IMG/VR virus record: IMGVR_UViG_3300047318_000381
Coordinates: 1 to 24,090 of that record
Length of the DNA: 24,090 bases
Source: a virus
Reading direction: 5' to 3' (one strand)
Shown: positions 21,097-23,716 of the stretch, piece by piece
How positions within the stretch are numbered: the first letter of the stretch is position 1
Layout: each line of letters opens with the position of its first letter
The notes under the pieces: model-generated
The model's input: only the letters and a program-made list of their open reading frames with translations
Databases searched by the model: none
Told to the model about the DNA's origin: nothing
Translations under genes and position numbers: made by a program

Positions 21097-21471
21097 TCAG
21101 ACGGCGGGTGCCTGTGCGTCGAGGAGCTCGATCTCGATAGCGAGAGCGCCGAGCGCCTCCTTCTCAGGCGGGTAGATCGAGCGGATGTTCGCGAGCTGCT
21201 CATCGCGGCCGGCTGCCGGATTCACGTTCGCCGGCCCCTCGCCGTCGAGGAGCGCCTCAAAGTCCGGGTACACAGTGACCCGCAGCACCCGGACGTCGCA
21301 CGTCTCGTCGGTGCCTTTGATCCGGAAGCGGATCGTGTCGCCCGCGGCCATGTCGGCGAGGTGTGGATACCGCACCCGGACCTCGATCTTCTTGCGGCCA
21401 GCGGCGACCAGCTCGAAGTACCTGCGGTACAGGTTCAGCTCGTGTCTGCGGGCGGTGGTCATGTCGCTCAT
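21097..21471 (-). CDS. ASCH-domain (PUA-like) protein
   Basis: 124 aa, ATG 21471 in an ATGA overlap with the upstream gene. The sequence 'YRRYFELVAAGRKKIEVRVR' carries the ASCH signature GxKxxExR (Gly25, Lys27/28, Glu30, Arg32). Next comes 'LADMAAGDTIRFRI', the GD..xF beta block, then 'VYPDFEALLDGE' and a closing strand AIEIELL. ASCH proteins have the PUA-like fold; characterised ones bind RNA or act on modified nucleosides (YqfB removes the acetyl group of N4-acetylcytidine). Which applies here is not known. Its coupling to a synthetase-like protein hints at RNA or nucleotide chemistry. It is the last gene of its unit. Confidence 0.85.
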   Translation of the reverse strand: MSDMTTARRHELNLYRRYFELVAAGRKKIEVRVRYPHLADMAAGDTIRFRIKGTDETCDVRVLRVTVYPDFEALLDGEGPANVNPAAGRDEQLANIRSIYPPEKEALGALAIEIELLDAQAPAV

Positions 21472-22577
21472 GGGGCAGTGACGCTCCTTGTCGGTGCGGA
21501 CATCAGGCGGCCGAGTTCGCCGGCCGAGTACGAGCGGAAGAAATGCCGAGGGTCGCTGAGGAATACTGCGGCCATCTCCAGCAGCCGATCGGCGTACTCG
21601 GACAACGACCCGGGCCACAACCTGGTGTCGAGCATCCACGGGGCGGAGCCGACGGGCAACGACGCCTTGCCGTCCCGGATGAGGGACTTGGACAGCTTGG
21701 CGCCGGTGTCCGTGACGACTTGCGGGCAGAACAGCCGCGTCGGGAGCTGCGCGCCGACAAGCCCGATTGCAGTCAGGGCGTTGTCGACGAGGGTCGAGCC
21801 GAACACCCAGTCGCCGCCTTTGACCATGACGGACAGTCGACCGCGGTCCGTGCTGGCAGCGAGCTCCTTGACGAGATTGCGGTACAGGGTCGCAAGGTCG
21901 AGGTAGCCGCCGCTGCCAGGGGCGATGACAACCTCGTATGGGCCGTGGTGCAGGCAGACGGCGTACACCACGGCGTAGTCGTCGCCGAGAAGAACACGAG
22001 TCCGCTCGGCGTACTTCTCGGCCCAGCCGCAACCGGGCTGCGGGCAGGGAACGCGGACGTGCGGGCTGCCGTGGGCCGGGTCCAGCCACCAGCGGGCAGC
22101 ATCGATGCGGCGGTGCGCCCGCAACCAGGTACGACGGAAATGCTCGTCCTCCTGCTGCCGCGAGTACATTTCGACCGCATAGGGGACCGACAGCCGTTCA
22201 GACAGGGCCTTGAACAGGGGCCGGTACAGCTCGTCGACCTGGTCTGCGAGGACGTTCTCACCGAGGGCCTGGGCGTAAGCACGCTGGTACCGGTGCCCCG
22301 ACGCCGGGTCCACGACGATCTCATGCGGCGCGTTGTCGAGGGCGCCGAACATCACCTCGACAGGGATTCCGAAGCGCTGACGGACCCGCTCCGCGGCAGC
22401 AAACGTAAGGGACTGCACGAGGGACGTGCCGAGGTGCGGGACGCCGTTGATCTGTGTTCCGACCACGAACACGATGCGTTCGGGCTGCGCGGTACGGATA
22501 CGGGGCGTGAGCACGTCCTCGGCGCGGCTGAGCGCGTTGGCGAGCACCGTATTCGGTGAAACGGGACATGCGGGCAT
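21468..22577 (-). CDS. Class I aminoacyl-tRNA-synthetase-like protein lacking a clear anticodon-binding domain
   Basis: 369 aa, ATG 22577 with GGGAG 5 bases upstream. Residues 35-50 ('IVFVVGTQINGVPHLG') end in PHLG, in the place of the class I HIGH motif. Residues 291-298 ('TGAKLSKS') match KMSKS. 'GGDWVFGSTLVDNAL' (254-268) resembles the GxDH block. Between them Cys178, Cys183, Cys208 and His210/211 suggest a zinc site, as in class I lysyl-tRNA synthetase. Only about 70 residues follow KLSKS, and host enzymes exceed 450 aa, so a full anticodon-binding domain is missing. It could activate an amino acid for something other than normal translation, or modify an adenylate-type substrate. It overlaps the ASCH gene by four bases, which suggests joint function. 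Confidence 0.7.
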   Translation of the reverse strand: MPACPVSPNTVLANALSRAEDVLTPRIRTAQPERIVFVVGTQINGVPHLGTSLVQSLTFAAAERVRQRFGIPVEVMFGALDNAPHEIVVDPASGHRYQRAYAQALGENVLADQVDELYRPLFKALSERLSVPYAVEMYSRQQEDEHFRRTWLRAHRRIDAARWWLDPAHGSPHVRVPCPQPGCGWAEKYAERTRVLLGDDYAVVYAVCLHHGPYEVVIAPGSGGYLDLATLYRNLVKELAASTDRGRLSVMVKGGDWVFGSTLVDNALTAIGLVGAQLPTRLFCPQVVTDTGAKLSKSLIRDGKASLPVGSAPWMLDTRLWPGSLSEYADRLLEMAAVFLSDPRHFFRSYSAGELGRLMSAPTRSVTAP

Positions 22578-22600
22578 GGCTGCTCCCTGAACGGGCGAGG

Positions 22601-22900
22601 TCAGAGCTCGGTGGTGGTGAACGGCGGCGGCAGCTGCGGCAAGCTGACGTCGAAGACCTGGGCGATCAGGTAGCGGGCCATGGTGTCGTGCTCCAGCTCG
22701 CTGCGCCCGGCGGGCATAGACAGGATGATCTCGCCGCTCTTGCGCTGGACGACCGCGCCGAAGAACTCGGCGTCGGCGATCGAGCTCTCGAAGAGCTCCA
22801 CCCCGGTCTCGGCCAGGAGGTCGGGCAGTGGGGCGTCCAACAGGTGGTCCATGGTGGGCGCCAAACGCTGGGGGAGGGTGCAACCCTGCGCTAAGGTCAT
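22601..22900 (-). CDS. Small hypothetical protein upstream of the synthetase-like gene
   Basis: 99 aa, ATG 22900 with AAAAGGA about 8 bases upstream. The middle reads 'LFESSIADAEFFGAVVQRKS' and continues GEIILSMPAGRSELEHDTMARYL. This FFG ... I.L..P.GR..xEHDxxAR layout is reminiscent of the N-terminal half of ImmA/IrrE-type proteins, but no HExxH metallopeptidase motif is present. It lies 23 bases before the synthetase-like gene and probably shares its transcript. Function is unknown. Confidence 0.65.
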   Translation of the reverse strand: MTLAQGCTLPQRLAPTMDHLLDAPLPDLLAETGVELFESSIADAEFFGAVVQRKSGEIILSMPAGRSELEHDTMARYLIAQVFDVSLPQLPPPFTTTEL

Positions 22901-23004: not shown

Positions 23005-23670
23005 CTATTCGACTTCGGAGACGGGCCTGCGCTTCGTCATCCAGAGCGCGGCAACGAAGGCGGCGAGCTGTTCGTCGGTCATTACTCCGCTGAGGATGGC
23101 AGCCGCCTCCTCCGGGCGGTCCACGGGAATCTTCACCACGCCTTCGTCCGGCATGGGCCAGGGGACGGAGTGGCGGCGATCGAGCAGGCCCGCATCGACC
23201 AAGGATTCGCACGCTCGCTTGACGGTCTCGATGCCGACTCCGAACTCCCTGGCGTACACCGGATTCGGCACCTTCGCCCCCGGCGGCAGCTCACCCGTAT
23301 CGATCTTCCTGCGGATGGCCTCGGCAACCTGGTAGTACCGGGTGAAAGGGCCCTGGTGGGGGAGTAGCTCTGATCGGGCGGCGCGACGTTGACGGACCTT
23401 GGTGACGTCTTCGCTGAGGTGCGGGTTGTCCCGCACGTTGAAGCGTGGACGTTCTTTCGCTATCGCCTCGATCTCTGCGCGATCGGCGGCCTCGCGAGCC
23501 TCGAACCACTCGTCGGTCCGGCGGGCGGCTAGAGGCCACCACGTGTCCGAGGCGCTCTTCGCGTGCTGCCGCTGGCGGGCATCCGGGTCATAGGCGATCC
23601 CCACGTACAGCAGGCTGTCGTCCTCGGCGAAGAACCGGTAGAGCGCGGTGCGTTCGGGGGTTTCGGGCAT
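23005..23670 (-). CDS. GIY-YIG nuclease domain fused to GntR winged helix
   Basis: 221 aa, ATG 23670 with AAGGAG about 5 bases upstream, preferred to an upstream in-frame start at 23709. Residues 9-50 ('ALYRFFAEDDSLLYVGIAYD' then PDARQRQH) are a GIY-YIG module: LYR and YVG in the GIY/YIG places, and Arg32 as the probable catalytic Arg. 'AEIEAIAKERPRFNV' (65-79) supplies the Glu and the PxFN ending. Residues 112-165 ('YYQVAEAIRRKIDTGELPPG' ... 'YAREFGVGIETVKRACESLV') are a full GntR winged helix. No ligand-binding domain follows. The fusion suggests a DNA-bound regulator with a nuclease-like domain that may be active or only a fold. It has a likely operator upstream (23717-23744). Confidence 0.85.
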   Translation of the reverse strand: MPETPERTALYRFFAEDDSLLYVGIAYDPDARQRQHAKSASDTWWPLAARRTDEWFEAREAADRAEIEAIAKERPRFNVRDNPHLSEDVTKVRQRRAARSELLPHQGPFTRYYQVAEAIRRKIDTGELPPGAKVPNPVYAREFGVGIETVKRACESLVDAGLLDRRHSVPWPMPDEGVVKIPVDRPEEAAAILSGVMTDEQLAAFVAALWMTKRRPVSEVE

Positions 23671-23716
23671 GCCGCTCCTTACTGAGCGTGTGGCGTCGGC
23701 CACTCTCACGTGACCG

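Follow-up and report, generated by a model that had tools for sequence, protein, structure and literature searches.

The locus and its gene pair

The window, by which we mean the whole 24-kb stretch of DNA analysed (24,090 nucleotides), is a virus record whose source is an actinophage, a phage of soil bacteria. It carries no tRNA genes. The features relevant to this study are the following:

Plus strand: genes for RecE/RecT-type recombination, a replication initiator, DnaC- and DnaB-like helicases and two DNA methyltransferases
21097-21471, minus strand: ASCH-domain protein of 124 residues (PF04266, phrog_19935), with its ATG at 21471 and its end at 21097
21468-21471, minus strand: 4-bp ATGA overlap, formed by the synthetase stop and the ASCH start
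21471-22577, minus strand: codons of the synthetase-like gene (369 residues), with its TGA stop at 21468-21470
21945-22046, minus strand: candidate zinc-type insertion within the synthetase, C178-x4-C183 ... C208-x2-H211, with four invariant residues
22601-22900, minus strand: small ORF of 99 residues upstream of the synthetase

The synthetase-like and ASCH genes share the ATGA at 21468-21471, the four-base overlap that an earlier note on this DNA had reported, and this arrangement is predicted to couple their translation. The same note had described the small upstream protein as conserved-looking and had envisaged a set of three co-occurring genes. The protein is real as an ORF, but it is conserved only in close viral relatives: among the 92 loci described below it occurs in five, the window and the viral loci L082, L084, L085 and L086, but is missing from every chromosomal locus, so that the three-gene set does not hold. 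Pfam, PHROG and PADLOC all lack a match to it. Because it is confined to close viral relatives, it was ruled out as a third member of the unit.

A separate observation concerns positions 23005-23709 of the minus strand, where one phage protein combines a GIY-YIG endonuclease-like N terminus with a GntR-type helix-turn-helix. The supporting matches are GIY-YIG in Pfam (E = 0.0014, below the cut-off), an endonuclease in PHROG (E = 2.5e-16) and the GntR helix-turn-helix (E = 2.6e-9).

Fold and motifs of the synthetase-like protein

The 369-residue protein contains a HIGH-like motif (P47-H48-L49-G50) and a KMSKS-like motif (K294-L-S-K-S298). Across an alignment of 30 homologues, whose other members are 52-84% identical to the window protein, P47, H48, G50 and the whole of KLSKS do not vary. 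The same is true of the candidate zinc ligands C178, C183, C208 and H211 and of K253, G254, D256 and W257, whereas relatives in which the synthetase is fused to ASCH have a C-x2-C in the zinc-type insertion. Class I synthetases bear an anticodon-binding domain at the C terminus. Here, just 71 residues follow KLSKS and the total is 369 residues versus ~508 in the class I LysRS structure 1irx, and with so short a C-terminal stretch the anticodon-binding domain is absent. Thus both motifs, the possible zinc insertion and the shortage of sequence for such a domain, all claimed in the earlier note, are borne out.

The motifs suggest that the protein forms an adenylate. They also bear on a different identity, that of a cyclodipeptide synthase. 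Cyclodipeptide synthases have a class I-like fold without HIGH and KMSKS, and this candidate was ruled out because the HIGH-like and KLSKS motifs are both present and invariant.

The AlphaFold2 model of the protein (pLDDT 86.6, pTM 0.86) gave 166 Foldseek matches in the PDB at E ≤ 0.001. Class I LysRS (1irx; E = 2.6e-9) ranks first, followed by GluRS, CysRS and MetRS, and the best 50 of the 166 are class I aminoacyl-tRNA synthetases with the exception of BshC. This similarity is at the level of the fold, with a TM score of about 0.5 and 15% identity. Class I LysRS likewise heads the matches of the model of a fused relative, which also include a domain of PyrN (9l8v), assigned to class I by fold match. 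The earlier note had named structure prediction as a check of the class I assignment, and by this route the protein is predicted to have the Rossmann-type fold of class I aminoacyl-tRNA synthetases. It resembles class I LysRS (PF01921; 1irx) in the catalytic fold, in a zinc-type insertion between the two halves, and in HIGH/KMSKS-type motifs arranged in co-linear order, though there are differences. The window protein lacks a Pfam match and the C-terminal helical anticodon-binding domain, and it is paired with an ASCH protein.

Searches at the level of sequence gave no named relative. No Pfam model (up to E = 1) or NCBIfam model matches the protein, and neither a PDB sequence search nor a profile of the 30 sequences found a convincing solved relative. 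PF01921 (tRNA-synt_1f) does not match the protein, whereas the same model finds Streptomyces class I LysRS at E ~1e-115. PF01406 and the GluRS catalytic-domain family PF00749 are likewise without a match. Comparison by hhalign with Streptomyces class I LysRS was co-linear and not significant (E = 0.23), the profiles being shallow and of little power; with actinobacterial CysRS and MshC it gave a short match in the HIGH region at low probability (E = 0.007 and 0.012, again from shallow profiles). A sequence-level tie to LysRS-I, CysRS or MshC was rejected on these grounds, as nothing significant emerged from Pfam, NCBIfam, the PDB profile or hhalign. In the comparison with named synthetases that the earlier note had suggested, structure places LysRS-I first and the LysRS-I and CysRS profiles are not significant.

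These results bear on whether the gene could be a spare housekeeping synthetase that resists an inhibitor, that is, a resistance gene of the LysRS-I type. Class I LysRS is the best structural match, and most sampled Streptomyces encode a class I LysRS. However, the window protein is much shorter than the host LysRS-I, has no anticodon-binding domain, and is linked to the Streptomyces enzyme neither by PF01921 nor by a significant profile match, and we consider this explanation highly improbable.

The family already bears a label in databases. The PHROG family phrog_35625, 'tRNA synthetase', matches the protein at E = 5e-183, and the window protein is 71% identical to a gene labelled tRNA synthetase in the Streptomyces phages Picard and Mojorita. 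Both phages have phrog_35625 and phrog_19935, the same families in the same order as the window pair, with the same 4-bp overlap in Picard; these genes bear database labels only ('tRNA synthetase' and, adjacent to it, 'RNA-binding protein'). A fold search of phage relatives (BFVD) gave as its best match an unnamed 511-residue protein, A0A345MNG5. The open-access literature searched yielded no description of the synthetase–ASCH pair, no paper joining an ASCH domain with an aminoacyl-tRNA synthetase and none relevant with Streptomyces; the original ASCH paper (PubMed 16322048) lies outside this scope and could mention the family. The term 'tRNA synthetase' is absent from the main text of the EVE/ASCH census. 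The earlier note had known of no such system, and this stands for the pair, which is apparently undescribed, but not for the first gene, which is already annotated. What is undescribed appears to be the pair as a system rather than the label of its first gene, and that label needs qualification because it suggests ordinary translation.

The ASCH partner and its coupling to the synthetase

The downstream protein is matched by PF04266 (E = 4.3e-11; 43.9 bits versus a cut-off of 21.2) and falls into phrog_19935, 'RNA-binding protein'. ASCH/PUA domains are binders of RNA or of modified bases: ASCH proteins from other families bind or cleave RNA (PMC5615036) or are considered readers of modified bases (PMC7641849). 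The N4-acetylcytidine amidohydrolase YqfB uses a Lys21-Thr24-Glu74 triad in which Thr24 is the proposed nucleophile (PMC6972931). The window family shares with YqfB the ASCH fold and the Lys and Arg of G-x-K-x-x-[T/E]-x-R, keeping the form G-x-K-x-x-E-x-R throughout its alignment, but the triad is not kept: the position of Thr24 is Glu30 in the window protein, and this glutamate is conserved across the family. Since a glutamate takes the place of the proposed nucleophile, the coupled ASCH does not have the identity of a YqfB-type amidohydrolase. On the window protein, the NCBIfam model for YqfB reaches 14 bits against a cut-off of 93.

More distant Streptomyces relatives of the ASCH protein, about 42-49% identical, are often fused to or adjoin NUDIX or methyltransferase sequence. 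Fusion to NUDIX hydrolase-like sequence was seen at five loci (L145 4546-6027, L146 4028-5509, L147 4756-5625, L148 5045-5872 and L154 5249-6118), two of which also have an N-terminal methyltransferase; further methyltransferase and NUDIX genes, as read from the sequence, are clustered around these loci.

Homologues of the synthetase were collected at 92 loci, comprising 80 genome loci (the best 80 of 147 from about 85,000 species scanned), 11 viral loci and the window. All 80 genome loci fetched are from Actinomycetota. An ASCH domain lies directly downstream or within the same ORF at 91 of the 92 loci, a few of which are duplicates of one element, and the sole locus without one stops at a contig edge. 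The spacing is exactly -4 bp at 68 of the 69 unfused loci measured. Synthetase and ASCH also diverge in parallel, with pairwise divergences correlated at r = 0.90 over 83 loci and at r = 0.69 over the 72 that are unfused; 0 of 2000 permutations reached the observed r in either set. The association across genomes, which the earlier note had put forward as a test, is thereby upheld: the coupling of synthetase and ASCH is genuine and nearly obligate, not a product of chance.

About a dozen loci, from Actinomadura, Glycomyces, Lentzea, Kutzneria, Nocardiopsis and Actinokineospora, encode both parts in a single ORF with the ASCH domain C-terminal. A Streptomyces locus, L028, is also fused and sits inside unfused relatives on the tree. 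This is suggestive of an independent fusion, though a single indel in the overlap, perhaps a sequencing error, would yield the same ORF. Modelled whole (pLDDT 88.1, pTM 0.86), a fused relative has an ASCH part that superposes on Pyrococcus PH0355 (2z0t) with a TMt of 0.90 and 39% identity. The Pyrococcus proteins PH0355 and PF0455 (2z0t, 1s04), in contrast, were solved as single small proteins, 2z0t under the title of hypothetical protein. Because gene order, the 4-bp overlap, parallel divergence and fusion all fix the partner, purification is feasible for the two proteins together or for a natural fusion, and the amino acid and acceptor are directly testable. Through this coupling a defined enzymatic partner can be assigned to ASCH, a domain that is widespread but has been given few functions.

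Distribution, gene neighbourhood and proposed activity

In a sample of 199 Streptomyces species, the close ASCH subfamily (scores above 130 bits) occurs in 26; comparison of coordinates places the synthetase or its remnant beside ASCH in 24 of the 26. The ASCH-coupled synthetase appears intact in about 20 of the 199, and several more have frameshifted or residual pieces. An intact synthetase of the coupled type without ASCH was not seen in these 199 genomes, the number of cases being few. At L155 5108-5467, L151 5241-5597 and L152 5109-5429 (genomes G100, G179 and G019), ASCH of the coupled subfamily remains and the synthetase is lost or absent.

Among phages, the pair is present in one of 16 other records related via the replication initiator and searched whole, and the two nearest phage relatives of the window carry it too. 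In Picard, the pair is flanked by the lysis region and a serine integrase. The tree requires five switches between carriage by viruses and carriage by chromosomes, and well-supported branches force at least four of these. Some loci have apparent relaxase and mobilisation genes (read by eye). The patchy phage carriage and the repeated switches mark the pair as accessory mobile cargo, distributed patchily among Streptomyces, actinophages and mobile elements.

Such a distribution recalls toxin–antitoxin or phage-conflict and defence modules, where the synthetase would be harmful by mis-acylating or sequestering tRNA or by burning ATP, and ASCH would restrain or aim it. The pair has two genes with an ATGA overlap, is patchy and mobile, leaves remnants and is accessory in phages; in addition, a broken or missing synthetase beside an intact ASCH occurs among the 199 Streptomyces genomes, and the ASCH-coupled group showed no case of the opposite kind. 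That bias is weak, however, since the counts are low and the synthetase gene has three times the length of its partner, and a toxin and its antitoxin would not usually be expected to share one conserved polypeptide throughout a clade. Moreover, no PADLOC model matches the synthetase, the ASCH protein, the small protein or the fused relative. The earlier note had considered phage defence or anti-defence cargo; the pair is indeed accessory and mobile, and support for a defence role is circumstantial. On balance, a module of this kind is improbable. PADLOC matches among the downstream neighbours involve many different models, each represented by few proteins, and a defence-island reading was rejected given this scatter and the blank result for the pair.

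Genes upstream of the pair vary among Streptomyces loci. A regulator-like cluster is found at most six genes away in 56 of the 72 unfused loci. Helix-turn-helix models match three of the five regulator-like clusters counted and the corresponding Picard gene; the largest cluster has no Pfam helix-turn-helix match and was assigned by inspection of its sequence. An HD/YfbR-like gene lies upstream in some loci. There is no constant third gene downstream, where NUDIX is the commonest Pfam family with 6 of 111 proteins. The fused group has an AAA_28 P-loop gene directly upstream in 13/13 loci and, in 12/13, also a gene of about 280 residues from an unknown family. AAA_28, ~280-residue and fused synthetase–ASCH genes apparently constitute a three-gene operon. 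A 200-residue AAA_28 protein and the ~280-residue protein precede the fused gene at L071-L081 and L092, and also at L107 4950-6412.

We tentatively propose that the pair is a two-component aminoacyl-transfer enzyme that acts on RNA, or on a nucleoside that is part of RNA, and uses ASCH for recognition. The synthetase core would activate an amino acid by adenylation, as its motifs suggest, and ASCH, co-translated or fused, would supply recognition of the acceptor. This acceptor would most likely be RNA, for example tRNA or a nucleoside in tRNA that may be modified, and the pair would pass the acyl group to it, probably to the benefit of the carrier. ASCH is cast as the acceptor recogniser chiefly because the fusions place it where the anticodon-binding domain would sit. 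A fuller version is more doubtful, namely that ASCH replaces the anticodon-binding domain and steers the class I core to a (possibly modified) nucleoside, giving a novel aminoacyl modification outside translation, with the phages and mobile elements of Actinomycetota as its vehicles.

Synthetases that have been truncated or repurposed are a well-established source of new chemistry, including tRNA nucleoside modification, protein modification and natural product ligases. GluQ-RS (YadB), which is paralogous to the catalytic domain of GluRS, acts on queuosine in tRNA-Asp (PMC3542578). The proposed principle would be alike, that of a class I core without an anticodon-binding domain aminoacylating a tRNA nucleoside. 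The window protein differs in having no GluRS Pfam match and in that recognition would reside in a PUA-like module, whether separate or fused; to our knowledge, GluQ-RS has no ASCH partner.

Several findings speak against acylation of RNA. The synthetase has no sequence-level link to any known aminoacyl-tRNA synthetase, the NUDIX and methyltransferase fusions of the next ASCH relatives fit nucleotide rather than RNA binding, and a distant homologue lies in a biosynthetic-looking cluster without ASCH. The main rival is a small-molecule ligase, which would join the activated amino acid to a free nucleoside, a nucleotide or another small amine; ASCH would bind the small molecule or the product, and the reaction would yield a metabolite or signal instead of modified RNA. 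We regard this as possible, yet less probable than aminoacyl transfer to RNA. The NUDIX and methyltransferase fusions fit it, as do the AAA_28 gene directly upstream in the fused group, the HD/YfbR-like gene of some loci, the lead of NUDIX among downstream families (only 6/111, however) and the biosynthetic-looking cluster of the distant homologues at L105 and L111. Natural product pathways provide a precedent in aminoacyl-tRNA synthetase-like ligases such as SbzA and AcmF, which are synthetase-type enzymes outside translation, SbzA having the class I fold (PMC12945691). Unlike these ligases, the ASCH-coupled pair has no constant biosynthetic neighbourhood: its neighbours are variable and no biosynthetic partner recurs. 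The context of L105 and L111 may also not transfer, as these homologues lack an adjacent ASCH and occupy a long branch far from the ASCH-coupled group.

The two loci of this distant type (L105 864-10280 and L111 2-9887) have similar biosynthetic-looking clusters. That of L105 contains PALP, an AurF N-oxygenase, an ornithine cyclodeaminase family protein, an OTC-family carbamoyltransferase, a methyltransferase, a PhyH dioxygenase and an amino-acid-type ABC transporter; the combination of PALP and cyclodeaminase is reminiscent of diaminopropionate synthesis. At another locus, L106 5824-7302, a single ORF links the greater part of an M20 (ArgE/DapE-type) peptidase with the C-terminal half of a distant relative of the synthetase that has KLSKT, and is perhaps the deletion junction of two neighbouring genes or a true chimaera.
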